From Saccoglossus kowalevskii (Eukaryota; Hemichordata; Enteropneusta; Harrimaniidae): a stretch of 23,845 bases of DNA. The DNA lies in NCBI RefSeq assembly GCF_000003605.2, contig NW_003151253.1, positions 928,118 through 951,962 of the forward strand. Direction: 5' to 3'. This document shows positions 2,690 through 23,845 of the stretch, in pieces (position 1 is the stretch's first letter; every line of letters begins with the position of its first letter). The position numbers and the translations under genes were made by a program. The notes under the pieces are model-generated. The model was given only the letters and a program-made list of their open reading frames with translations, searched no databases and was not told where the DNA came from.

Positions 2690-2886
2690 CATAAAACAGC
2701 GCTCTTTGGAATGTGATAATTCAAAACTGAAATCTTTCTTTTTCTTGCTTGCTGTTTTTGCCTCATAACCCAGGAGTGAAAATGCATTCAGTTGTTCTTT
2801 ATCAGTAGACTTCTTATAGTAATAAAAGATATTGTCTTTAACCACACACCATCGCTTCTGCCATTTTGTTAAACCAAACTGTCCAT
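2690..2886 (-). CDS. SKAP: SKAP coding exon 5 (core of PH domain)
   Basis: The acceptor TTTTTTTGTCAG precedes 2886. The 65 codons contain KWQKRWCVVKDN, FYYYKKSTDKEQ, LLGYEA and DFSFELSHSKERCFM, close to SKAP2 EWQKRW, FYYYGSDKDKQQ and CCFEI. The likely donor is ATG|GTTTGT (phase 0), matching SKAP2 RIYQ|FTA. Beyond it the frame turns into Cys/Tyr/Val-rich sequence from a CATA-type microsatellite (about 2626-2653), which is intron. FARP-type PH domains are also similar, but neighbouring exons settle it as SKAP. Confidence 0.88.
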
Positions 2887-5800
2887 CTGACAAAAAAATT
2901 GATATACTGTAGAATACTTTATTTTCGCTTGGAACTAATTTTCGCTATTTTCACTGAATCGTACCTTCAGCAAAATCCAGCAAATATACCTTTTTTCCTA
3001 TATTTTACATTCAACATTCAAAAATCAGTGAAAATAAATTCCATACAAAATACCAAAAACGCCTTTTCAGCGAAAATTAATTCCAGCTTAAATTAAGTAT
3101 TTTATAGTACTATAACATTATACAGTGATTTTACAGAGACCTAATTTACAGGGCGACACAGACAGCATGCAATATGGCTGGGAAAGTTCTATGTTCTTAG
3201 TGTGTAGCAGAAATTAGTGTCCTATATACATATTCATTAAACCACATGCTCACCTTTTCTCTTCTTCCCCAACATTCCTTCTTTTGCAGCTGGTTGTAAC
3301 TCACTTGCAGGTGTTAATGGTACTATAGAAACTTAATAGAATAAATGAATATAACCTCATGAATAACCAAACAACTATACTAGCAATTCACATACCATCA
3401 TCAATGGTTAATAAAATACTAAGTTTATTAATCACACAGGGTCTGACAATACCAGCAATTCACATACCATCATCAATGGTTAGTAAAATACTAAGTTTAT
3501 TAATTGCACAGGGTCTGACTATACCAGCAATTCACATACCATCATCAATGGTTAATAAAATACTAAGTTTATTAATTGCACAGGGTCTGACTATACCAGC
3601 AATTCACATACAACCATCAATGGTTAGTAAAATACTAAGTTTATTAATTGCACAGGGTCTGACTATATTAGCAATTCACATATCATCATTAATGGTTAAC
3701 AAAATACTAAGTTTATTAATTGCACAGGGTCTGACTGTATTAGCAATTCACATACCATCATTAATGGTTAATAAAATACTAAGTTTATTAATTGCACAGG
3801 GTCTGACTATACCAGCAATTCACATAAACCATCAATGGTTAGTAAAATACTAAGTTTATTAATTGCACAGGGTCTGACTATACCAGCAATTCACATACAA
3901 CCATCAATAGTTAGTAAAATACTAAGTTTATTAATTGCACAGGATCTGACTTTATCAGCAGTTCACATACCATCATCAATGGTTAATAAAATACTAAGTT
4001 TATTAATTGCACAGGGTCTGACTATATTAGCAATTCACATATCATCATTAATGGTTAATAAAATACTAAGTTTATTAATTGCACAGGGTCTGACTGTATT
4101 AGCAATTCACATACCATCATTAATGGTTAATAAAATACTAAGTTTATTAATTGCACAGGATCTGACTATACCAGCAATTCACATACAACCATCAATGGTT
4201 AGTAAAATACTAAGTTTATTAATTGCACAGGGTCTGACTATACCAGCAATTCACATATCATCATCAATGGTTAGTAAAATACTAAGTTTATTAATTGTAC
4301 AGGATCTGACTATACCAGCAATTTACATACAACCATCAATGGTTAGTAAAATACTAAGTTTATTAATTGCACAGGATCTGACTATACCAGCAATTCACAT
4401 CCCATCATCAATGGTAAGTAAAATACTAAGTTTATTAATCACACAGGGTCTGACAATACCTGCAATTCACATACCATCATCAGTGGTTAGTAAAATACTA
4501 AGTTTATTAATTGCACAGGGTCTGACTGTATTAGCAATTTACATATCATCATTAATGGTTAATAAAATACTAAGTTTATTAATTGCACAGGATCTGACTA
4601 TACCAGCAATTCACATGCCATCATCAATGGTTAGTAAAATACTAAGTTTATTAATCACATAGGGTCTGACTATACCAGCAATTCACATACAACCATCAAT
4701 GGTTAGTAAAATACTAAGTTTATTAATTGCACAGGGTCTGACTATACCAGCAATTCACATACCATCATCAATGGTTAATAAAATACTAAGTTTATTAATT
4801 GCACAGGGACTGACTGTGTTAGCAATTCACATATCATCATTAATGGTTAATAAAATACTAAGTTTATTAATTGCACAGGGTCTGATTGTATTAGCAATTC
4901 ACATACCATCATTAATGGTTAATAAAATACTAAGTTTATTAATTGCACAGGGTCTGACTATACCAGCAATTCACATACCATCATCAATGGTTAGTAAAAT
5001 ACTAAGTTTATTAATCACACAGGGTCTGACAATACCAGCAATTCACATGCAACCATCAATGGTTAGTAAAATACTAAGTTTATTAATCACATAGGGTCTG
5101 ACAATACCAGCAATTCACATACCATCATCAATGGTTAGTAAAATACTAAGTTTATTAATTGCACAGGGTCTGACTATACCAGCAATTCACATACAACCAT
5201 CAATGGTTAGTAAAATACTATGTTTATTAATTGCACAGGGACTGACTATATTAGCAATTCACATATCATCATTAATGGTTAATAAAATACTAAGTTTATT
5301 AATTGCACAGGGTCTGACTGTATTAGCAATTCACATACCATCATTAATGGTTAATAAAATACTAAGTTTATTAATTGCACAGGGTCTGACTGTATAAGCA
5401 ATTCACATATTATCAATGGTTAATACAATTTACATGCAGTTTAATTTATTCCAGAGCACCTCTACCACAAGTTCAATTTAAATCTGATTTTTTGAGATAT
5501 AAGAAATTGGCTAATGATAATAAAGTAATCAATAGATATGTTTTTCAACATAAACTAATAACATCTGTGGATTACCCCATTAGGTATGCGTATTGTTACA
5601 GGCACATATGTTCATTATAATGTAATGATTAATCCTTAAAAAAAACTGGAAAGGCACAAAAAAAATATTATGCAAATTAGGTAATTATTAAAATGTATTA
5701 TTGATATATAATTCCAAAACTAATTAGTATTTATGTACCAAGATTCACTGAAATAAGATAAGTACTTGAAATATTGATGAAATCTGACTAAGTATTATAC

Positions 5801-7076
5801 AAATCAGGTAATTAATATATGCAGATTTTAATGAAAAACTAATAATGTCTGCGCAATGTCATAGAGCAACTATATACCAAGTTTTATTGAAACGTGATTA
5901 GAGCTTGACATATCGATGGAAATGTCGAAAATTGAATAATTATGCAAATCAGGTAACTAATCTGCACATATTTTAACAGATACTTATTAGGTGAGTGCAT
6001 TCGTCTAGAGCATTTATGTATCAAGTTTTCACTGAAATGTAATGATTAGTACTTGAAATATCAGCAGAAAGCTGAAAATTAACTAATTATGCAAATAAGA
6101 TAAATAATATGCACAAAAACTATCAGGTCTGTGCATTGTCCTATGACATCTATGTACCAAGTTTCATTGAAATGTGATGATTACTACTTGAGATTTTATT
6201 GGAAAAGCCAAAAATTGACTAACCATTATGCAAATTTGGTGATTATTATGCACAGACTTTTACCCAAAACTAATCAGGTCTGCACATTGTTCCAGAGCAT
6301 CTATGTGCAAAGTTTCATTGAAATCTGACCAGCAGTTCTTAAGATAATGTTGGAACAGACATATAGACATACAAGTTTATCGACTGGCCAAGACCTGACT
6401 GCAGCAATAATTGTCATTAATTGAATACTAATTTTATTAACTGCCTAGGATCTCATTACTCAGTAAGATAGTAATTTACATACTATTGCCATAGGGACAA
6501 TCATCAACACTTTTTGAGTCATCCGTACTATTTTCTGTGACACATTGGGAAATTGTGTCAGTCTCCTGCGACGTTGCTTCATCATATATATCTTCTGTCA
6601 CTGCTTCTAAAATGAAAATAAAATAAAATATTAGCCGGGTAGACCAGGGTAGTTGCGACACCAAAGATGATCGTCACCGGTATGGGGTTCAGTGCATGAT
6701 GTAAAGATTGACAAGCTCAATTAATTTCCACCAACCAGCGTTGAAATCAAAATTTGTCTCAATAGATAGAAACCATGGATAAAAATCATGCTGAAATTGT
6801 ACATTTTTTGAGATTTTTTCATGATGGCATTTCAAGGCAGTTTCAGAGGTGTAATATAAGATACTGGGACATGTACATTGTACATCGCTTTGAGAAAACA
6901 ATAAAAAGTCATTGATTCATACACCTATAGCTAATTAATATGCAAATTAGGTAATTAATATGCACAGATTTCAACTAAAACTAATCAGGTCTGCGCATGA
7001 TAAAAGAGCATATGTGTGCCACATTTCACTGGACGGACGGACGGACGGACGGACGGATGGACGGACGGACAGACGG

Positions 7077-7143
<67 letters not shown>

Positions 7144-9308
7144 TGTCAAATACAGAGTTACCATCACTAAGTTCTGAATTTCTGCACATAAACTACTAAT
7201 AGAAACTGGTTAATATACCAATGTGGTTAATAATGTTAGCGAAGTTTGCGAATTGTCATTTCATGACTTGCGTAAGATCAGATCAATGAAAAATTGTCTA
7301 AGAAAAGCCCAATTAGATTCCTGTAACAGTCTTCTTTATGATACAACAAATTCACAAAAATGTCAACAATTACAGAATTCTGCAGCTAGACTAGTCACTT
7401 GTTGCAGAAAGTATGAGCATATTACAGGTACACCATATTTGATGAGGCTACCTATTAGATTTAGACATACTGTTAAAGAAAAAGAAAACCTATGAGCAGT
7501 ATTGGAATATAAGCTCATTGTTTTGATAACAAAGTTGGAATAATATAGATAGCAGTATTCCATAGCAAACTGTTACATTTTAACTATTAATATTGCTATT
7601 TTATTTTTTCACCATGTTTATGGATTGGGATGCTAAATTATGTTAGAAAAAGATCTGACCTTTGTTTATTTAAAGTTCATTTAACATATTTATTCAAAAA
7701 GACGTATCGTTTGCAGATATTTTTTTATTTTACATCACTATCCAGGGGTCGAAATACTAGTGCAAGTAAACTCAAAATATAATGTGCACGCTGTGTATGT
7801 AGAAATTAACACAACATTTTCTCATTATATTCACTAAACCTAAATTATGTTCAACCAATATTGTAAGACAACTCAAAAAAAAGCAAATTCTTTCGAGATC
7901 GCGTCAATCGAGAACATGTAAATTTTATTTAAACTTTAAAAGTGGTGCATTTCACAACAAGTTAGTACAGGTAAATTTCAAATTCAACATGCACTAAGCA
8001 TGCAGGGAAAAGATTCTATTTCAATCCCTGTCATCATATATTCAGTTATATTTCTCTTATTATTAGTATTGTTCTTTTTATTATGTAACAATTTCCTTGT
8101 TTTGTACTATTGATTAGTTTTCAACTGTAGAAAGTGCAATAATAATAATATATAATAATATATCTATATCAAATATATTGTATTTACCAACTTGTCTTAT
8201 TATTATGTCTTCTCTTGAACTCGTCTATTTAAATATTTGGACATCACTTTTTAATTCTTCTAATATATTGATACACTTAATATGAGTAATAAAATTATTA
8301 TTTTAACTGTTTGAGTTATTGTAACCACAAGAAAAAGTTATATGAGGGGCGGCAAGGGGAGTAGCTGGTACAGTTTTACGGGAAATAAATAGGGCTTTTT
8401 ACAATTTACAAGGAAAAAAGACGTCTTTACAGTTTACAGTGAAAATTGAATTTTGCAGTGAATTGTGTCATCTAGTTGTTTTACATTTTCGAAAATGTAA
8501 TTTCCCTGGATTATTCTTTACGACTTTTTTTATTTGGATGTAAATTCTAGTACGTACCGAGAAAAATGGCACATTTTTACAGTTTACGAAAAAAATATTT
8601 GATTGATTACGTTGTACGTCTAGCCTGTGATTACAGAATTACTGAATTTATTTTTTCAATTTACGTTGTACGAACCAAAAAATATTGCAATTACGTTGAA
8701 CGAAAATAACCCTAGCCTCCCCCCTTTATATGACATAGTCAACAATAATAACAACAGACTTTTCCCCGTATACCTTGATCTTCATCTATGATGATACAAT
8801 ACATACCATGCTAGGCAAATAATTGTCACTTTTCTACTTCAACATAAACACATACATTGACAATCAAAGGTTCACATTACACTAAACACGGAAATTGTAA
8901 ATCTCACTTTTTCAATTGCTAAAATTGCACGAGGTGGTGCCAGTGCTTATGAATAAGTTTTAACTGTGATAGAGGGACTGTGGTTTTAAAAAAAAAAAAA
9001 AAACATCGACAGTACCTGTCCTATCTTCAGTCTCCATCCTTTTTTTCAGTGAAGTTATTTTTTTGATTAGTTCATCTCGTTTTTTGTTGGTGTCTCGGCT
9101 CAGTTTTTCTTTTTTCAACACCATAATCAGGAAATTCTCGACATCTTCCAAAATAAAAACAGAAACAAAAATTTACAAGCGAAACGCCCAGTTTTATAAC
9201 TTTAATAGCCGGGCTGCAGGCTACAAGGAAGTGCCACTCACGCTTCGGAAGGTATGAAACGTCCTTACCTTCCATTAGACACTTCACCTCCGGGATAACT
9301 GAATCCAT
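2690..9308 (-). CDS. SKAP: SKAP1/SKAP2-like Src kinase-associated phosphoprotein, 5' five exons (gene partial)
   Basis: Joined exons 9308-9269, 9144-9016, 6606-6484, 3322-3254 and 2886-2690 give 186 residues without a stop. Residues 1-56 match the SKAP N-terminal helical dimerisation region (DVENFL ... KKRDELIKKI, compared with DVETFV ... KRESLIKKI in vertebrate SKAP2). Residues 57-105 form an acidic Ser/Thr-rich linker with EDIYDE (Tyr64), a plausible Src-family site. The PH domain starts near residue 112 (EGMLGKKRKD, matching AGYLEKRRKD) and runs through KWQKRW (128-133), FYYY (141-144) and LLGYEA. It stops where SKAP2 reads RIYQ|FTA. Introns 1-4 are all phase 1 and every junction codon fits; the intron after exon 5 is phase 0. 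Family knowledge: SKAPs are cytosolic adaptors linking Src-family kinases and FYB/ADAP to integrin and actin control, with a C-terminal SH3. The rest of the PH domain and the SH3 were not found in 1-2690, so the gene runs off the left edge. Paralogue assignment (1 or 2) is not meaningful here. Confidence 0.9.
2905..3109. mobile_element. MITE/foldback family 2, copy A, in SKAP intron 4
   Basis: TACTGTAGAATACTTTATTT...AACTAATTTTCGCT at the left is inverted at the right (AGCGAAAATTAATTCCAGC...AGTATTTTATAGTA), arms about 42 bases, TA outside. The left edge lies within 20 bases of the SKAP exon 5 acceptor. Confidence 0.75.
3254..3322 (-). CDS. SKAP: SKAP coding exon 4 (start of PH domain)
   Basis: A 69-nt exon between acceptor TTTCTATAG|TA and donor AAAAG|GTGAGC. 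It encodes residues 99-120, ending EGMLGKKRK; the last G joins AT of exon 5 to give Asp121. This aligns with KAGYLEKRRKD at the start of the SKAP2 PH domain. It was too short to show up as an independent open frame and was found by looking for the missing PH strand with matching phase. Confidence 0.85.
3371..5438. repeat. 72-bp minisatellite array, 28 copies, in SKAP intron 3
   Basis: The landmark AAGTTTATTA recurs 28 times from 3421 to 5364, every 72 bases except one 71-base step (copy 6 to 7, lost C near 3828); copy 26 has TGTTTATTA. Partial units flank the array. Units fall into four subtypes by the bases after TTCACATA: CCATCATCA, CAACCATCA, TCATCATTA and CCATCATTA. Because 72 is a multiple of three, plus-strand frames with a 24-residue repeat stay open for hundreds of bases; these are not genes (no conserved protein, interrupted by the 71-base step and by CACATAG stops in copies 18 and 24). 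Confidence 0.97.
5440..6372 (+). repeat. About seven tandem units of a 140-bp dispersed repeat
   Basis: Landmark (C)AGAGCA.CTATGTACCAAG followed by TTTCATTGAAATGTGAT and GCAAAT.AG.TAATTA recurs near 5450, 5590, 5735, 5863, 6003, 6144 and 6295, a period of 130-150 bases. The right end decays into AGACATA-type short repeats. Same family as 1690-2172 and 6930-7143. It separates the 72-bp array from its diverged copy at exon 3. Confidence 0.8.
6390..6485. repeat. Diverged copy of the 72-bp unit overlapping the SKAP exon 3 donor
   Basis: The stretch aligns to the unit over TCATTAAT, AATACTAA-TTTATTA, ACTGC/ATTGC, AGGATCT and AATTTACATA, preceded by a partial GACCTGACTGCAGCAA like GATCTGACTATACCAGCAA. 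Its right end is the exon 3 5' splice site. It is more diverged than any array copy. Confidence 0.65.
6484..6606 (-). CDS. SKAP: SKAP coding exon 3 (acidic Tyr-containing linker)
   Basis: The acceptor TTTCATTTTAG|AA lies at 6607-6608 and the donor AATA|GTATGTAAATT begins at 6483. The 123 nt encode residues 58-97, rich in Asp, Glu, Ser and Thr, including EDIYDE. SKAP2 has an equivalent acidic, Tyr-containing stretch between its helical and PH regions. The donor and the following about 70 bases are homologous to the 72-bp tandem repeat that fills the next intron. Symmetric phase 1. Confidence 0.82.
6930..7143 (+). mobile_element. 140-bp-family copy ending in a GACG/GACA tetranucleotide tract (pearl-like)
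   Basis: One unit (TATGCAAATTAGGTAATTAATATGCACAG..., ACTAATCAGGTCTGCGCATG, CACATTTCACTGGACGG) runs straight into about 25 tetranucleotides, GACG from 7033 then GACA to 7142. Tandem core units followed by an ACGG-type microsatellite resemble the non-autonomous pearl elements described in bivalves, later linked to Helitron-like elements; the assignment is inferred. Confidence 0.55.
7200..7560 (+). mobile_element. CR1/L2-like LINE reverse-transcriptase C-terminal fragment, degenerate
   Basis: The frame at 7223-7495 reads ...LRKIRSMKNCL..., LDSCNSLLYD, QQLQNSAARLVTCCRKYEHIT, PYLMRLPIRFRHTVK. This matches the thumb/C-terminal pattern of CR1/L2/Jockey-group reverse transcriptases (LDYCNSLLYG, LQ.VQNSAARLV, HITP.L..LHWLP). 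The catalytic palm is absent; HWLP is degraded and the frame ends in a stop at 7495. A dead 3' fragment in SKAP intron 2. Confidence 0.8.
7561..8336. other. SKAP intron 2, A+T-rich, nothing recognised
   Basis: Only low-complexity AATAAT/ATATAT at about 8139-8175 stands out. Confidence 0.5.
8337..8735. mobile_element. Possible inverted-repeat element in SKAP intron 2
   Basis: TTATATGAGGGGCGG at the left and the inverted CCCCCCTTTATATGAC at the right bracket about 400 bases with several ACAGTTTAC / TTTACGTTGTACG motifs in both orientations. Ends are short and imperfect. Confidence 0.4.
9016..9144 (-). CDS. SKAP: SKAP coding exon 2 (N-terminal helical region)
   Basis: The acceptor is a T-rich tract ending in GGAAG|AT; the first two bases complete Asp14 with the last G of exon 1. 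The exon has 42 full codons (residues 15-56), Lys-rich and helical, with the SKAP-characteristic KKRDELIKKI. The donor is GACAG|GTACTG at 9015. Length 129 nt, phase 1 on both sides, so skipping it would keep the frame. Confidence 0.9.
9269..9308 (-). CDS. SKAP: SKAP coding exon 1 (start codon)
   Basis: ATG at 9308-9306 followed by 13 codons plus one base (MDSVIPEVKCLME). The donor GTAAGG begins at 9268. The frame remains open four codons further upstream but with no ATG (the codon there is GTG), so this ATG is the start. IPEV...LMEDVE aligns with LPEEIRNLLADVE at the SKAP2 N-terminus. Confidence 0.85.
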
Positions 9309-9426
9309 TTCGACTTTCACAAAACGAAATATCTCGGTTTTCTAATCAGGCCAAAACTCATCTGACGCAGAAATAAAGTTGCGTCTTGTTCTAGAAAACG
9401 ACGATGTTTAGAATTGCACTTCCCTA

Positions 9427-9509
9427 CTTCCTGGTTATATACATCACGTGACTAAGAACAACAAGACACGGATCCTGTCATTGGTGTAAATCCTACACAG
9501 CCGACCAAT
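9427..9509 (-). promoter_or_regulatory. Putative SKAP core promoter (CCAAT, E-box, TATA, ETS core)
   Basis: Reading the minus strand towards exon 1 there is CCAAT (9484-9480), the palindromic E-box CACGTG (9450-9445), TATATAA (9441-9435) and an AGGAAG ETS core (9432-9427). A start site about 30 bases past the TATA would be near 9405-9411 and give a 5' UTR of about 100 bases. A plus-strand CCAAT at 9505-9509 points the other way. Motif spacing is seen directly; promoter activity is inferred. Confidence 0.5.
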
Positions 9510-10090
9510 AAAATGTCTCGTTACACGCCAAACTGGACGAGCTATTACATTACATCTCCATCTCAGCGCTAGACTGAGATCTCTTATGAATGCTTCAAAC
9601 ACGATGTCTCCATCGAAAAAGAAATTGTTTTTCTTTAGCGTTTCACGAAGGTAATTATCTTTCATTTTTGTCACTTCGTTTGCGTCAGATATGTACATTT
9701 TCCGAAATCGCCAACACTTAGTTTTGGAACCGCGATGAGGCCTTCGAAGTCCCGTTTTTTCCATGGCGAAGTTACCCCCACGAAAACTCGAAATTCGCGA
9801 CCATGGGCTGTCAACTCGTGGCGATTCGATTGAACTCTGAAGTCCGAAATGCCCTCCTGCCAAAAGTCTTCTGCTGTTATATTGTCTGCGCATGTGCGAA
9901 TTTCCACCCCGAGGACTATTTCGCAGGGCACCGTGACAACTCAACCCTGCCCTAAGCTGTCAAATAAACCCGGAGGTGCTCATCGAAGCAGAATTTTAGC
10001 AATGGCGCATATTAAACAGCGAATGCAGTGTAAGCGTTTACCTCCTGGAGCCCCCCATCACAAAGAAACACTGATAGGCGCTCCATCGGG
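9440..10090. promoter_or_regulatory. CpG-richer segment between the divergent genes; possible bidirectional promoter / first exon
   Basis: CpG dinucleotides are clearly denser here than in the flanking A+T-rich DNA, which is also why long overlapping open frames occur on both strands (minus 9444-9944 and 9671-9931; plus 9849-10160). None shows a domain I recognise. An NRF1-like TGCGCATGTGCG lies at 9887-9898. On the plus strand an ATG with strong context (10002) is followed by a GTAAGC donor at 10030, compatible with a first exon. The segment may serve SKAP, SMUG1 or both; alternatively one of the minus-strand frames is an unrecognised exon. Confidence 0.35.
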
Positions 10091-11859
10091 TGAAATAACT
10101 AACACCACACATATTTTGAAACAAAACTGTTTCACAATCAAAGATTATTATTATCAATGAAATGTCTAGATTGTGAATAAAAAGAAAGACTAAAAATTCC
10201 GCAGTAATACAGTATGTCAATTGAATATACACAATTATGTCAAGGTCCTCTATGAAAGCTGTAGATTTTGTCTTTTCTTTCAGAATTTCACTCGGTATTC
10301 ATAGTGATGTTTAGTTAGGTACAAAACAAATAAATAGATTTCAAAGAGTCCAATATAAAATGTACTAGTTCGTTATCGTGATTGTAGCATGCATCAGTAT
10401 TTGAAAAGGGCACCATTTTGAAACTCAATTGAGAGCCTGGATTGTATAGGTTTTTTAGGTTGATCTAAAAAAAAATGTATCTGTTTTAAATCTGTTGACT
10501 TTATTGTGCGAATACATCCAAACTGATTATTAATTATTAATTCACGCAATAGACAATATATTAAAACAGTCTGTTACTGGAAGATTTTATTTTATTATAT
10601 GGCTTGTTTACATAAAGACACTGTCTTTTTTTAATAATGGCATAATGGTGTTGCAAATTACATATGACTGTGAATGCATTATTTTCATTGGAATTTGTTT
10701 TCACTAAAATAAAAAAATAGCCATGATTGTCATGCATTTATGGCTGATCTGTGGAAATAAATTGCATTCAAAACCATAGAAAAAAAAACACATATTCAAT
10801 CAACAAAAATGCGCTGAATATACAATTTTCGCCATAATTGGTATGTTATTTATGGCAGATTGATAAAAAGAAATACTATACTAAACCTTGGAAAATAACA
10901 ATGTTTTCATGTGGCTGTCATTCCTGGCAGATCAGTACTAAAGGGACTGTGGATGATAAAAGCATGTTCACAGCAAATGTAATCTTTTCGTTTACAATTC
11001 TACTTCTTCTCCTTAAGGCCCACTCCTAAAGTGTGAAAAATAATGTGAAAACAAACTTAAAAAAACAACTAAGTGTGATTTTACCCACAGTAATTAATTA
11101 AAATCACCTTTCACTCCTCCCACTCCTTAACAAAGAGATTATGTTTACTGTGTGCATGTTTTAATTATCCATTGCTTCATATGTGTGACAAGCAAAATGT
11201 TGTTTTTCAGCAGAAATTAATACCAGCTAGAATAAAAGTTATTAACAGACAGTAATAACAATTTTAGATTTTTTTTTTTTTTTTTTGGTGCTTTTGAGAA
11301 GTTTGTTTATAATGATTATCTCTTGAGTAGGATTTATAGGTGACAAAGGGTGGATGAGAAAAGTGCATGCAACTAGGGTGATATGTCAATGAAATACCTT
11401 GGAATTATTCAAGAAATCTTATGGTCAAACCACATTCGGTTATGACTTGAAAACAATCTACAAAATAAATGAATGAGCAAATAAATCAAAATTGTGAAAA
11501 AAAAATTAATATGAAAAAATTGCAATTATTGTATACTGGATAGGTGAAATAGACAAACCTAAGTTTGTTCCAAAATTGTAAATTTTCATTTGCAGAGATG
11601 GAAGTTTGTGAAAGTCACTGGCTTGGTCTCGGTGAACTTTCTACACAAGTTTCGCGCTGAAACATATGTTAATTTATTTAAAAAAATAAACTTGAATAAG
11701 GGGTATTTGAATAAAAAATGCATGAAATTAAAAAGATTATTTCTCATTTTGGTAAATTTCATTGAGATACTCACCTCACTGAAAAAATCTCAGTCTGAAA
11801 GTTATATTCCCACTTTATATGATCTTTTACTGTCTCACAACATTTTTTCTTGTCAAACT
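10091..11859. other. Intergenic or 5' intronic A+T-rich DNA
   Basis: A foldback at about 10672-10770 (GAATGCATTATTTTCA inverted as AAATAAATTGCATTC), a family-2-like scrap at 11204-11245 and a T-run of about 20 at 11267-11286. The frames at 11586-11871 on both strands overlap each other and look like chance. Confidence 0.45.
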
Positions 11860-12140
11860 AAAGGGCGGTAGTTGTTGCGCCACGCATGCGCGAGATATAT
11901 GGGTCTCATATAGACAAAGATGGTGACTTTGACTGTTGCGCAGATCAACGAATACAAACTGAGACATTACCAAGCTTTAATCAGGTATTTTTTTAGGTGA
12001 TTGGAAGGTATTGAAGGAGTCACAGGTGTTAATTAGTGCAAGTCACGCCCAGGTCAAACCTCATACTTTTTCATTAGAAAAACGCATTGGATTATGGGAA
12101 AATCAATGTTTATCAACACAAATGTGGCACATGCGCAGTT
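11860..12140 (+). promoter_or_regulatory. Second CpG/NRF1-like promoter candidate upstream of SMUG1
   Basis: An island of CpGs in A+T-rich DNA with two NRF1-type sites: CGCATGCGCG near 11883-11892 and GCACATGCGCA at 12127-12137. NRF1 sites are typical of housekeeping promoters. A candidate coding exon begins between them at 11920. Promoter identity is inferred from motifs only. Confidence 0.35.
11920..11984 (+). CDS. Candidate short first coding exon upstream of SMUG1 (unproven)
   Basis: ATG in strong context (A at -3, G at +4) opens 21 codons plus two bases, beginning MVTLTVAQINEY, followed by AG|GTATTT at 11985. Left unspliced, the frame stops at 11998. Its phase fits the acceptor CATCAG|T at 14779/14780, which would read through ATTATG into the SMUG1 frame and add about 26 residues. 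A phase match has a one-in-three chance by accident, and no homologue of the peptide is recognised. It could equally be an upstream open frame or the start of another gene. Confidence 0.25.
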
Positions 12141-12810
12141 TACAGTTTCCAAATCTGATTAAAATAACATCTTAGTTTGGGACTTTTTTTTTTTTTTTGA
12201 TTTTTTTTAAATGTATTTTATTTTATTTTTTATATACCTTATTAGAAATCATGCTTAAGATATGAAGCATCAGCAGCCAATCAAATCTGTTGTTACATAA
12301 CATTCTTTAGAACAGGAGATACAACACAACTAAAAACACAGCGAATTTGTGGGCTTTTGCAATTACCAGAAATAAAATAAAATACATGAAAAAATAAAAA
12401 TAAATACCATATTTGCTCTATTCAGAAGATCCAGTAGAATACAATGTCTCCAATAGAATCGCATATAATCCAAAATTACATTTGTTATATACTAAATCAT
12501 GAAATTATCACTTTTTTTGACCACCGATTATCCACTGTCGTTAACTCTATTGCTTTTTTACTTCGTACATATATTCCGTATTTTAAATGAATATTTTCTT
12601 AATTTTGGGTCAAAAATGTTATTTTCAACTTCTTGAAAACTTCCACTCCAATTGATTGGTTTGATACTTAAGTGGACTAGTTTTATTTTATTTGTTGTTA
12701 CCCTTGAGGGTATCAGCTGAAATAAAATTACTGGAAAGAACACATACTTATATAAATGGAAAAAAAAACAGACAATTTAAAACTTAAAGGAAATACAAAA
12801 AAATTAATCT
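12141..12810. other. A+T-rich DNA, no gene seen
   Basis: T-runs at about 12184-12210 and a faint relative of the 332-514 MITE near 12408-12460 (CTCTATTCAGAAG..CC, CAATAGAATCGCA). Confidence 0.4.
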
Positions 12811-13667
12811 TTAGCTCTGCTGTCGACTTTGTCGAGCGGAGCTTATCATATGAGTGATTGTCCATCGTCCGTGTCAATGTTTTACTTTTTCGACTTCTTC
12901 TTGAAAACTACAAGCCTAAATGCTTTGATACTTGGTGTATATGTACCTTGGGTAGACCTCTCTTAGGTTTGTTCATTTCATGTTGATATCTTCAATTCTC
13001 TAATTTTGGTGAATATTTTTGTCATTTTTGGTAAAAAGTGATATTTTCGACTTCTTGTTAAAAACTGTAAGTCCGATTGCTTTGATACTATTCATATTGT
13101 TCATTTTCTAATGATGTCTTCAGTTCTTTAATTGAAATGTGCATTGCTAACAGCGGAGCTATCTCAGCCGATAGGCTGCTTGTTTTTTCGACTTCTGCTT
13201 GAAAACTACAAGCCTGATTGCTTTGATACTTGGTGTATATGTACCTTGGGTAGACCTCTCTCAGATTTGTTCATTTTATGTAGATATCTTTAATTCTTTA
13301 ATTTTGATGAATAGTTTTGTCATTTTTGGTAAAAAGTGATATTTTCAACTTCTTGTTGAAAACCACAAGACTGATTGCTTTGATATTATACATATAGGTA
13401 CTATAGGTGGACCTCTCTCATATTTGTTCATTTAGTCATATCTTCAATTTGTCTTATTTTGCTGAATATTTTTGTCATTTTTAGTAAAAAGTGATATTTT
13501 TGACTTCTTGTTGAAAACCGCAAGTCCATTGCTTTGATATTATACATATAGGTACTACATGTGGACCTCTCTCATATTTGTTCATTTCGTGATGATATCT
13601 TCAATTCTTTAATTGAAATGTGCATAGCTAACAGTGAGGCTATCTCAGCTGAGAGACTGCTTGTTTA
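12811..13667 (+). mobile_element. Hairpin-ended repeat element, two units in tandem
   Basis: Starts with the 31-nt hairpin at 12813-12843 (AGCTCTGCTGTCGAC, loop TTT, GTCGAGCGGAGCT), then GTGATTGTCCATCGTCC and about 180-bp internal units (TTTTTCGACTTCTTCTTGAA, GACCTCTCT...TTTGTTCATTT, AAAAAGTGATATTTT). End-type hairpins with GCTATCTCAGC lie at about 13152-13180 and 13634-13662, so two element bodies appear joined. Non-coding. Confidence 0.72.
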
Positions 13668-13780
13668 AGATAATCATTGAATTTTAGAATCTTATAAATC
13701 ACTATTAAATGGCAACTAAGTTCAATTTTGGTGTAACAAGCAAGCGCAATTTGACAATTAGATAAGTGGAGTAAAAAAAA

Positions 13781-14055
13781 AATCACCTGTCATCAAAGAT
13801 GACAGACCGGTGATTGTCCGTCCATTTTTCTGTCTGTCCTTCTATCAGATGTTTGTCTACAATTGCACTTTTGACTTTTTCTTGAAAACAACCAGCCTGA
13901 TTTCTTTAATATTTTATATGTAGACACCTCAAGTTTTGGGTGGATATCTCCAGATCTTTAATTTTGATGAATATTTTGGTCATTTTTGGAAAAAGGTGAT
14001 ATTTTTAACAGCTAGTCCGTTTGCTTTGATATTTTATATGACACCTAGAGTTGGC
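13781..14055 (+). mobile_element. Diverged relative of the hairpin-ended family
   Basis: A 31-nt hairpin (13783-13813: TCACCTGTCATC, loop AAA, GATGACAGACCGGTGA) precedes TTGTCCGTCC and internal sequence TTTTGACTTTTTCTTGAAAA, GAATATTTTGGTCATTTTTG and AAAAAGGTGATATTTT like the neighbouring element. The stem sequence differs completely while hairpin length, loop position and downstream motif are kept. Confidence 0.6.
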
Positions 14056-14681
14056 CTTTTATGATACCACTAGTTTTAGTGACATTTTACAAAGGTCGTT
14101 TGTTCTGACATCCATGCTAGTTTCTGTGTCTGTCTGTGTGATTATACTCAGTCTGTCTCTGTACTTCCAGTCATACTGCATTAAAATTGACATACAGATG
14201 ATGCATGGATCCCTTCAGTTGATATGTAAGTCTTCATGTGACTGGTTCTAAACTACCCGTAATGCTAAACACGGACACTGCTTGTGTTTTTGAGACCATG
14301 CATGTTGTATATTCACATAATAATGTGATCGTATTTTATATTATGTTGATCTCTAGACATAGGTCTTTCTGGATCGCTTTGTGATTTCATTCAAAGGCTC
14401 AGACAAACTATTATAGACTAGTTTCAAAGTTTTGGGCTCAGCCAAATTTATTTAATTTTTCATTGGAACTTTGTGGCGACCTTCACTGCGGCGATTACTG
14501 CATTACACCGTCCATTTGATTTCCTAATCTCCCCTAAAACAAATTCCAAAATAGTAAATTTATAGCAAAAATATATATATATGAAATACAAAAATACAAG
14601 CTGTGCACAATACGTTGTTTCATCTTTATGTTGTAATTTTAAATGTTGTAATTTTTTTAAAACTTTGATTTTAATTTCTAG
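14056..14681. other. Immediate upstream region of SMUG1, nothing recognised
   Basis: A+T-rich. It ends with a credible 3' splice site (TTTTAATTTCTAG) so it is probably 5' UTR intron. Confidence 0.4.
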
Positions 14682-14792
14682 GGAATAAATGGTATCACGG
14701 CAATATATGACAAGTCTGCTATGTCATTTGGACGGTAACTTTCATTTCATTTCATCTTATTAATTCGCATTGACATCAGTCTTCAACTCATT

Positions 14793-16274
14793 ATGGATAA
14801 CCAGCCGGAGATGAAGAGACTAAAGACCGGTTACCATAGTTATTATCAGGACAATCCTGAAACAGAACTAGATGGACCTTTCAAACGTGTTCCCGATACT
14901 ACATTCCCCAAAACCGAACTTGACATCAGTCCTCAGCCAAGCATGGACTATCTGAAATACGGTAATCCGAGTAACATGGCAACAAGGATGTCCTACCCAA
15001 ATTATTCTGAAGTTAATCATCAAACGAGTATGGCAGCGCGAATGGCCTACTCGAATTACCCAGGGACCACTGATCCAGCCAATATGAGTTCGTGGATGGG
15101 ATATTCTAATTATACTGGTGTTGCCGATCCAGCAAACATGACGTCAAGGATGGCGTATTCGAACTATGCCGCTGCTGATCATGCAGGTGTGAATTCGCGG
15201 ATGGCGTACGCGAACTATGGTGTTTCTGATCAAACTAGCGTGGCTACAAGGATGGCCTACTCAAACTACGCAGGTGTTCCCAATCAGGCACGAGTGGCTT
15301 ACACGAACTATCCTGGCATTAGCGACCAGCCGAGTATGGTTGTGCGGCCGCCATATCCAAATTATGCTGGCATTGCTGATCAAACAAATGCTTCTGCAAG
15401 GATGGCCCAGTCGTATGACAGCGGCGTTGTGGACCACACTGCCGCTGCATCAAAGGGTTGGGGTTCAGCAAGTCTTGAAAGTACTCCAACATCGAGCCCG
15501 GGATATTTTAACTGGAGGGGAAATCCAGTTCAATCGGAGAACTCACCGGCAGCCAACTTAGGAGGCTATAGCGGTATGACCTCTGTGAATCACGAGGCCA
15601 ACAATATGATGAGTCATCAGTCTAACTCAGTGGATTTCACTGATAGAGGCGAGCTACCTCATGTGCATGCGTCTCTAAAAACTGAAGGGTATATCGATTG
15701 TAGGTATGATAATAACGGAGAAACTGGGGACTACGAGTCTAAAATAAAAATGCAACATAGCAAATTGCCAGTCGCTTACGACGAGAGAGTTTCATGCATG
15801 CCAGGTATGGCATCCAATCAGACAATACTTGAGCATAGAGGCATTCACTTACCTAATCAGAAATCTGTAATTGTGGAGAACCAAGCAGCCAATCATTATC
15901 CTGGATTTCAGTCACATGGTGTGATGCTGACCAATGACACGATGCCTGGTAAGAACTCGCCATCTAATGAAATATCAAAAGGGCAAGACTGGCGAGATAT
16001 TGTGAATGCATATAAGCAAGAAAAATGTAAAACTGAAGCTCTTCCTGTGCCGATTTATGACGGGGACATCGCTGATAAAGTACTGGAAATTGAGGATAAA
16101 TTGTGTCAGGCGTTGAATCACCTGCTCTTTACTGAGCCAGTTACTCACATATATAATCCATTAATTTATGCAAGTGAGACACATCAACAGTACGTAAAGA
16201 AGTATTGCACATCTGTTAAACCGATTCTATTTCTTGGAATGAACCCTGGACCATTTGGCATGGCACAGAATGGG
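14793..16274 (+). CDS. SMUG1: SMUG1 exon with repeat-rich N-terminal extension and first catalytic motif
   Basis: 494 codons. Residues 1-50 are charged and polar with a basic patch (MKRLKTGY). Residues 65-209 hold nine degenerate copies of a motif centred on RMAYSNY (starting at 65, 83, 101, 119, 136, 153, 167, 185 and 203), spacing mostly 17-18. Residues 210-410 are low-complexity, rich in Ser, Asn, Gly and His, and probably disordered. The glycosylase domain follows. The donor is GGG|GTAAGT at 16275. Possible acceptors upstream of the ATG are TTTCTAG ending near 14681 and CATCAG at 14779. Confidence 0.93.
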
Positions 16275-17565
16275 GTAAGTAAACATTGTGACCACAATAC
16301 GCTACCATATGCATGACCTCCAAAAGGTCACACATCCTGGCACCTTCTGGGGGGGGGGGGGGGGGTACAACTTCAATTTAATGAGAAGTGCTCCATTACT
16401 TTTAACCAACACTGTGAACACTTGTACCCCTTATTTAAGTTCCCAAAAAATGAAATGTATAATATTGGAAATTTTTATAGGGCAACAATACTCCCAGAAA
16501 GTACCAGTATGTGTGACCTTTAGGGTCAAAGTACCAGGATGTATGACCTTAAAACGTTAAATTATGCAGTAATCCGATTGTGCTGAACATAGGAAACATG
16601 TGAGAAGGGCGTGTCTTTTTTTAACCTTTTTTTTTTTTTGTACCGCAAACTTTTCTTTTTCTGTAGAGGTGAGGCAGGAGTGTTAAAACAAAAAATTACC
16701 TTTATGTGTACATTATTCCTATTTATAAATCACTACTATCAGAATCAGAGGTTTTTATGATGTCATAACTTTACTTTATCACCGATAATATAAACCTCTA
16801 TTTGCAGGTAAATTCAAATTTAACTAAATTTGTTTTATTTTGATAATGGTGCTTTATGACAACAATAATAACACTTTCGTATGCGGAGTTGTGAAGGATT
16901 CATTATTGTTTAAATAAAGTATTAAGTATAATTGCTATGCATGTTTGTATCGGAAGTCAATTAATTAAATTTTGCACTTTTCTGCATAGTTAATCTATAA
17001 ATCTTTTGAGAAATCAAACTAAATTTTTGTTTTTGCAGGTGCCATTTGGGGAAGTTTCGTATGTTCGTGATTGGTTAAATATTACTGGAAATGTTAATCA
17101 GCCAATAAACGAGCACCCAAAAAGACCAATCCATGGATTGCAGAGTACGCGTAGCGAAGTCAGCGGTCTCCGTTTTTGGAGGTTTTTCAAAGCATTGACT
17201 AAAACACCTGAAATGTTCTTTAAGTACTGTTACGTCCACAATTACTGCCCTCTAGTGTTCATGTCCAAGACTGGCAAGAACGTTACTCCGCCTACTTTGA
17301 ATGTTGCACAGCGAGCTCCGCTTATGACAGTTTGCGATACATCACTGTGCGAGACAATACAGCTGTTACAAGTGAAAGTAATTATAGGTGTTGGACGATT
17401 CGCGCAGGAAAGAGCGAAACATGCGTTGAAGGAACGTGGGTTAGAGATATTAGAATTGAGTTCCTAATGCATCCTAGCCCCATCAATCCGTTAGCCAATA
17501 AATGTTGGGACTCCATCGCTACACAGCAGTTAGCAGACATTGATGTACTCCGTTATTTAACGTAG
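14793..17565 (+). CDS. SMUG1: SMUG1, single-strand-selective monofunctional uracil-DNA glycosylase, with N-terminal extension and a frame disruption
   Basis: Exons 14793-16274 and 17039-17565, intron 16275-17038 in phase 0 between Gly494 and Val495. SMUG1 removes uracil and 5-hydroxymethyluracil from DNA in nuclear base-excision repair. The catalytic domain starts near residue 430: FTEPVTHIYNP, then LFLGMNPGPFGMAQNG|VPFGEV with the catalytic Asn (human Asn85) at 484, EHPKRP, SEVSGLRFW, HNYCPLVF (uracil-binding Asn, human Asn163), then HPSPINPLANKCW with the catalytic His (human His239). The last block is in a different frame: the main frame reads to a stop at 17465-17467, while HPSP... is one frame back and ends at TAG 17563-17565. 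Vertebrate SMUG1 is about 270 residues; this one would be about 670. Start: in-frame TAA at 14736, then ATG with A at -3 and G at +4. Sequence error, a young null allele and recoding remain possible explanations. Confidence 0.95.
16275..17038 (+). other. SMUG1 intron
   Basis: GTAAGT ... TTTTTGCAG, 764 bases, phase 0. It splits GMAQNG|VPFGEV. It contains an inverted-repeat element with a 17-G run (16314-16550); the rest is A+T-rich with nothing recognised. Confidence 0.9.
16314..16550. mobile_element. Short inverted-repeat element in SMUG1 intron, with poly(G) run
   Basis: The left arm (16314 to about 16355) and right arm (about 16489-16528) are inverted copies around GGTCACACAT and the CTGG/CCAG flanks. 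The right arm is followed by a direct second copy of AAGTACCAG.ATGT.TGACC (16529-16550). A run of 17 G (16349-16365) lies where the left arm should continue CTGGGAGTATTG. Looks like a MITE or foldback remnant; no coding capacity. Confidence 0.55.
17039..17565 (+). CDS. SMUG1: SMUG1 terminal exon, frame broken near 17444-17457
   Basis: The acceptor TTTTTGTTTTTGCAG ends at 17038. The main frame is clean for 142 codons (VPFGEVSYVRDW ... KERGLEI), then runs LELSS-stop at 17467. From about 17455 the frame one base back reads IEFLMHPSPINPLANKCW ... RYLT and stops at 17565, matching the SMUG1 C-terminus. Either one base is missing or two are extra; no GT-AG pair in the short stretch could remove it, and no canonical slippery heptamer is visible. 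Confidence 0.9.
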
Positions 17566-23537: not shown

Positions 23538-23666
23538 GTGTAGTAGTGGAAGGTTTTACTTCTTGAATATTGCATTGTGTTTACATGGAAGTAAAAAAAA
23601 ATTTCAAATTAATATAGAAACCACTGCTTCACTCAATGATAAAGACAACATATTTTGTAATCATTT

Positions 23667-23845
23667 TTAGCTCCGCTGTCGACTTTGTCGAGCGGAGCTT
23701 ATCATATGAGTGATTGTCCGTCGTCGTCGTCCGTGTCAATGTTTTACTTTTTCGACTTCTTCTTGAAAACTACAAGCCTGAATGCTTTGATACTTGGTGT
23801 ATATGTACCTTGGGTAGACCTCTCTCAGATTTGTTCATTTCATGA
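23667..23845 (+). mobile_element. Hairpin-ended element, 5' part, cut by window edge
   Basis: The hairpin at 23669-23699 and the following about 145 bases are nearly identical to 12811-12990, differing by a few substitutions and extra GTC triplets in the CCGTCGTCGTCCGTGTC tract. The close match suggests a recent common source. Confidence 0.75.

Follow-up and report, generated by a model that had tools for sequence, protein, structure and literature searches.

Which genes bordered the Hox cluster before the vertebrate genome duplications is a question that bears on the origin of the Hox regulatory landscape, and an invertebrate pairing of SKAP with SMUG1 would suggest that genes now lying beside different Hox clusters once adjoined. 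Such a pair occurs in the hemichordate Saccoglossus kowalevskii, in a stretch of 23,845 nucleotides (hereafter the window; positions 928118-951962 of scaffold C4122, NW_003151253.1, which measures 1,116,440 bp). Here SKAP, a Src-family adaptor, and SMUG1, a uracil-DNA glycosylase, adjoin back to back in divergent orientation, with their first ATGs 5.5 kb apart. Does this locus still mark the edge of a Hox cluster, or is it the remnant of an older chromosome? Our analysis favours the latter: the adjacency was probably, if not securely, inherited from a pre-duplication chromosome that also carried Hox, and it does not demonstrably flank Hox1 in this genome.

In the literature, the cichlid HoxBb cluster is adjoined by scap1, snx11, cbx1 and nfe2l1 (PMC2080641), mouse Smug1 adjoins Hoxc4 (PMC4510006), and human HNRNPA1 separates SMUG1 and CBX5 from NFE2 and COPZ1 (PMC13265542). 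The vertebrate linkage of SKAP with HOXA and HOXB, and of SMUG1 with HOXC, is thus already published (PMC2080641, PMC9774920, PMC4510006, PMC13265542, PMC10762089). Both genes belong to the set that forms the anterior Hox flanks of vertebrates (HOXB-SKAP1-SNX11-CBX1-NFE2L1; HOXA-SKAP2-SNX10-CBX3; HOXC4-SMUG1-CBX5-HNRNPA1-NFE2), whereas in the window they are direct neighbours. When combined, the vertebrate linkages predict a former proximity of SKAP and SMUG1, and in the hemichordate they are indeed neighbours in the expected orientation. In fact, the human gene strands imply that in the order Hox-SMUG1-SKAP the last two genes diverge, so that the divergence observed here is compatible with such an ancestral order.

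The SKAP and SMUG1 genes

The SKAP gene lies on the minus strand (9308-2690), comprises five exons in the window and probably extends off its left edge, while SMUG1 occupies the plus strand (14793-17565) with two exons separated by a GT-AG intron. The interval 2690..17565, singled out in an earlier note on this DNA, therefore runs from the last base of the fifth SKAP exon to the SMUG1 stop codon. The features are the following:

9269..9308, minus strand: SKAP exon 1, from the start codon ATG to a phase-1 donor (GTAAGG); the joined protein matches SKAP2 (1u5e)
9016..9144, minus strand: SKAP exon 2, N-terminal dimerisation helices; the frame 8963-9172 has 1u5e as its best match (E 0.0025)
6484..6606, minus strand: SKAP exon 3, encoding an acidic linker that contains EDIYDE, from exon joining and the match of the joined frame to 1u5e
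3254..3322, minus strand: SKAP exon 4, linker followed by the beginning of the PH domain, from exon joining and the joined-frame match
2690..2886, minus strand: SKAP exon 5, the larger part of the PH domain (PF00169, 3.9e-10; best chains 1u5g and 1u5d)
9501..10000, no strand: CpG-rich stretch (observed/expected CpG 1.30) directly upstream of the first SKAP exon, lying between the genes as a candidate promoter region
14793..16274, plus strand: SMUG1 exon with the start codon, a tyrosine-repeat extension of ~420 residues leading into the first part of the glycosylase domain, with MNPGPFGMAQ
17039..17565, plus strand: last SMUG1 exon, with a frame shift between ~17440 and 17465 and the HPSP-motif tail in another frame

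All SKAP splice borders are AG and GT, and four phase-1 joins yield a single frame of 186 residues. Residues 7-181 of this frame align with residues 5-182 of the SKAP2 chain 1u5e (E 2.8e-26), the best non-SKAP chain reaching E 1.5e-6, and the alignment places N-terminal dimerisation helices ahead of a PH domain, as expected for SKAP. The PH exon alone has SKAP2 (41.2 bits) and SKAP1 (40.8 bits) as its top matches, at nearly equal scores, which fits the expectation for a pre-duplication gene. Searching the whole genome (572 Mb, 4,830 contigs) with an E threshold of 0.001 returned four SKAP matches, every one inside the window; no second SKAP was found elsewhere at this threshold. As the window yielded no exon for the C-terminal SH3 domain, the gene probably continues past the left edge, where the adjoining 10 kb read N. 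One SKAP intron carries 28 copies of a 72-bp tandem repeat (3374-5409), through which long open frames run, 72 being divisible by three.

As for SMUG1, the core matches Xenopus SMUG1 with E 3.2e-79 and the human SMUG1 chain with E 2.2e-75, and the MNPGPFGMAQ motif is present in it. A shorter piece scored 20.1 bits against the Pfam UDG model, below the 24.3-bit cut-off, and the core gave zero NCBIfam matches up to E 0.1. The gene shares with known SMUG1 glycosylases (Xenopus 1oe4, human 9ggs, Geobacter 5h93) both the core domain and the HPSP tail (E 2.2e-5), which here ends at the stop codon at 17565. Unlike in those proteins, however, a frame change precedes the tail, and the HPSP-NP-AN motif lies in a different frame from the core; this may be either a sequencing error or a real mutation. 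A second difference concerns the N-terminus, where ~420 residues precede the domain, compared with 23 before the matching part of the human chain. This low-complexity extension (14793-16060) contains eight YxNY-type repeats at a spacing of 14-18 residues. We class the gene as SMUG1 by its apparent descent, a label that does not imply a proven functional enzyme.

Judged by these similarities, both homologies are beyond chance, and the adjacent, divergent arrangement described in the earlier note is confirmed. The CpG-rich interval between the two genes may act as a divergent promoter region.

Neighbours of the pair on the scaffold

The neighbouring genes come from the parts of the scaffold that were read, chiefly those from 888 kb rightwards. 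Blocks of N adjoin the window on both sides (918118-928117 and 951963-991296), and of the 164,478 bases remaining on the right 84,583, about half, are readable. To the left we found GTPBP4/NOG1 at ~890.3-894.7 kb: four of nine left-side frames matched NOG1-type models and five matched nothing. To the right, an ADARB-type editase lies at 1,095.7-1,098.0 kb (A_deamin 2.2e-115; editase 1 chain 6vff 3.3e-218), its frame being the only one in a set of ten to give a match. Further on, at 1,108-1,112 kb, are WD40 exons, to which WD40 models matched in one frame each (best 1.3e-8). By their sequence we tentatively take them to be WDR37-like; against the PDB, the best 60 of 409 sequences were other WD40 proteins. 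The right flank was scanned with 75 frames (loci L032-L044) of the 613 listed for L031-L045 and L069, and a HU-CCDC81 model reached 0.009 in right-flank frames. Finally, a zinc-finger homeodomain gene with a PLDLS-like motif is located far to the left, at ~646-650 kb (646233-650273). Its homeodomain is held in an 851-residue zinc-finger frame, next to which further zinc fingers adjoin, and by these features it is presumably a ZEB gene.

Human 10p15.3 is listed as carrying LARP4B, GTPBP4, IDI2, WDR37 and ADARB2-AS1 (PMC4411697). Resembling this set, GTPBP4, the ADARB-type editase and the WDR37-like gene fall within ~221 kb of this 1.1-Mb scaffold. Compared with the human block (LARP4B, GTPBP4, IDI2, WDR37, ADARB2), however, the order of ADARB and the WDR37-like gene is reversed, and SKAP and SMUG1 sit between GTPBP4 and ADARB. 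SKAP and SMUG1 are thus embedded in a block resembling 10p15.3.

This placement could in principle come from the scaffolding, with the pair genuine within its contig and its position in the block a misjoin, an explanation which is compatible with the others considered here. The N blocks flanking the window and the N content of about half of the right flank fit such an error, as these stretches may be either assembly gaps or withheld sequence. On the other hand, the genes found on the two sides, GTPBP4 on the left and ADARB with the WDR37-like gene on the right, belong together in human (PMC4411697), which suggests that the scaffold is sound overall and makes a misjoin quite improbable.

By uniting SKAP, SMUG1, the 10p15.3-like genes and the ZEB-like gene, C4122 raises the possibility that the ancestral Hox chromosome once included what is now the human 10p15.3 block, since detached, with the SKAP-SMUG1 pair as its hinge. 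We advance this tentatively, as a proposition that may well be wrong. In birds, chromosome 7 of the chicken carries HOXD and ZEB2, and its chromosome 2 carries HOXA together with 10p genes. ADARB1 and ITGB2 are listed together for chicken chromosome 7 (PMC11366514), a turkey list agrees with this grouping (PMC8470100), and ITGB2 reportedly departed from the HOXD chromosome during primate ancestry (PMC12198301); the grouping and this origin of ITGB2 tie the 10p15.3-like block loosely to the Hox chromosome. The present surroundings of the pair would offer a concrete, checkable outline of the possible break-up of the old Hox chromosome.

Hox, SNX and CBX genes in the genome

The earlier note had predicted Hox1 beyond the right edge of the window. 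A homeodomain search of the genome, in which 150 of 209 candidates were scored, gave at least 95 matches, a single one of them on C4122. This one was rejected as Hox, since it is the homeodomain within the 851-residue zinc-finger frame of the ZEB-like gene. Consequently C4122 carries no recognised Hox gene, and the remaining 164 kb on the right, about half of them N, contain no homeodomain match. Instead, the homeoboxes that we assign, from signature residues, to Hox1 and Hox2 types lie on a separate scaffold, C1423 (61,380 bp). By the same residues, the five homeoboxes of C132 (337,294 bp) are read as Hox3, Hox4, one middle and two posterior types, and the two of C2346 as posterior types. A Hox cluster spread over three scaffolds resembles the Saccoglossus kowalevskii table entry in PMC6307216.

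The pair might still flank the anterior Hox end in this genome, if Hox1 lay past the right end of C4122. The Hox1-type homeobox is situated 12.6 kb from the end of the small C1423 and is transcribed towards that end; C4122 ends 171 kb past SMUG1; and the divergent arrangement, given the human strands, fits Hox1-SMUG1-SKAP. However, a junction of C1423 with that end of C4122 would leave at least ~183 kb, including ADARB and the WDR37-like gene, between SMUG1 and Hox1. Moreover, 45 selected frames from the last 10 kb of C1423, beyond Hox1, show no Pfam match up to 0.01, and the 928 kb leftwards of the window show no SNX, CBX or NFE2L match in searches of low sensitivity. Taken together, an intact flank of this kind appears unlikely.

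The same note had placed SNX10/11 and CBX genes beyond the left edge, where none was matched. On C4122, including those 928 kb, fall none of the 13 genome matches for PX (SNX), none of the 30 for the chromodomain (CBX) and none of the two for bZIP-Maf (NFE2L); an SNX10-type query gave eight weak matches (best E 0.003), likewise none on C4122. These negatives are weak, because no gene recognisable as SNX10/11 or as an HP1-type CBX turned up in any part of the genome (17 short loci and two at C2353 were read), the domain searches took exons singly, parts of C4122 read N, and 14 control genomes were also without PX, Chromo, Homeodomain or bZIP-Maf matches, so that a gauge of sensitivity is absent. 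The chromo-shadow family gave no candidate and its controls were blank too, hence this search is uninformative. Within the ~1 Mb on either side over which the earlier note looked for Hox, SNX or CBX, none was matched on C4122, a scaffold that ends 164 kb to the right.

Two further candidates were set aside. A PX domain and a chromodomain ~70 kb apart on C2353 suggested an SNX-CBX neighbourhood; the PX domain is unlike SNX10/11 by eye, and the chromodomain was rejected as HP1, the same type occurring at C3278, C518 and C1804. In the window itself, the best tblastn match to a Hox, CBX or SH3 exon had E 0.13 and was taken as chance.

Origin of the adjacency

In the explanation that we favour, SKAP and SMUG1 would have been neighbours on a pre-duplication chromosome that also bore Hox. 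After the vertebrate genome duplications and the losses that followed, SKAP would have stayed next to HOXA and HOXB, and SMUG1 next to HOXC. In the present genome, the Hox cluster would since have separated from the pair, or at least its adjacency to it is not demonstrated, and the pair would now lie between genes matching 10p15.3 (GTPBP4 versus ADARB and the WDR37-like gene), with the ZEB-like gene on the same scaffold. No special mechanism is invoked.

Several points weigh against this explanation. The vertebrate linkage asserted by the earlier note is largely borne out (PMC2080641, PMC4510006, PMC13265542), except that teleost Smug1 does not always stand at the Hox edge: the cichlid HoxCa clone is listed with three genes 3' of the cluster, cbx5, hnrpa1 and nfe2, and smug1 is missing (PMC2080641). 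Since a Hox gene was not found on C4122, the tie to Hox rests on the vertebrates, and because N blocks adjoin the window, its position relative to GTPBP4 and ADARB hinges on how the scaffold was joined. In addition, a single invertebrate genome was compared. Finally, many neighbours of Hox clusters are described as highly rearranged, commonly lying on different chromosomes among the bilaterians compared (PMC11175523), which means that the local order of SKAP and SMUG1 may be recent. The same rearrangement would also fit a Hox cluster that has since separated from the pair.

Indeed, SKAP and SMUG1 may have been brought together secondarily, by shuffling within the chromosome, so that the match to a Hox flank would be coincidental. 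Besides the mobility of Hox neighbours (PMC11175523), this alternative draws on the fact that the likeness to the vertebrate flank was spotted after the fact and that the genes found around the pair are not Hox-flank genes. Nevertheless, by our estimate only two of about a thousand genes on a chromosome can adjoin SKAP, and the orientation agrees as well, making such a coincidence distinctly improbable.

We thus infer common descent of the adjacency and its tie to the Hox chromosome, and the pair resembles a relic of that old chromosome more than a proven edge of a Hox cluster. Of the fossil flank first proposed, the two genes are real, adjacent and divergent; flanking them are GTPBP4, ADARB and WD40 genes instead, and C4122 has no Hox, SNX, CBX or NFE2L match such as the vertebrate flanks would lead one to expect, within the weak searches described. 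An anterior Hox flank in this genome is unproven and now looks less likely than when it was proposed. While the vertebrate SKAP-Hox and Smug1-Hoxc4 linkages were known, no paper on an invertebrate pair was found among those listed, judging by titles and the openings of abstracts. The pair is best regarded as a genuine remnant of old synteny that is modestly informative.

Among the rest of the window, 10 other open frames have no Pfam match over the curated cut-off. An open frame at 7214-7492, without a Pfam match, resembles, by its motifs, the end of a LINE reverse transcriptase. An interspersed repeat family with an internal period of 157 bp occupies three sites (1056-1554, 12807-13614 and, at the right edge, 23663-23845). 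Elsewhere in the genome, four homeoboxes lie within 100 kb (C1465:630021-729362); they resemble one Msx-like, two NK2-type and one Lbx-like gene, and the group is possibly part of the deuterostome pharyngeal cluster.

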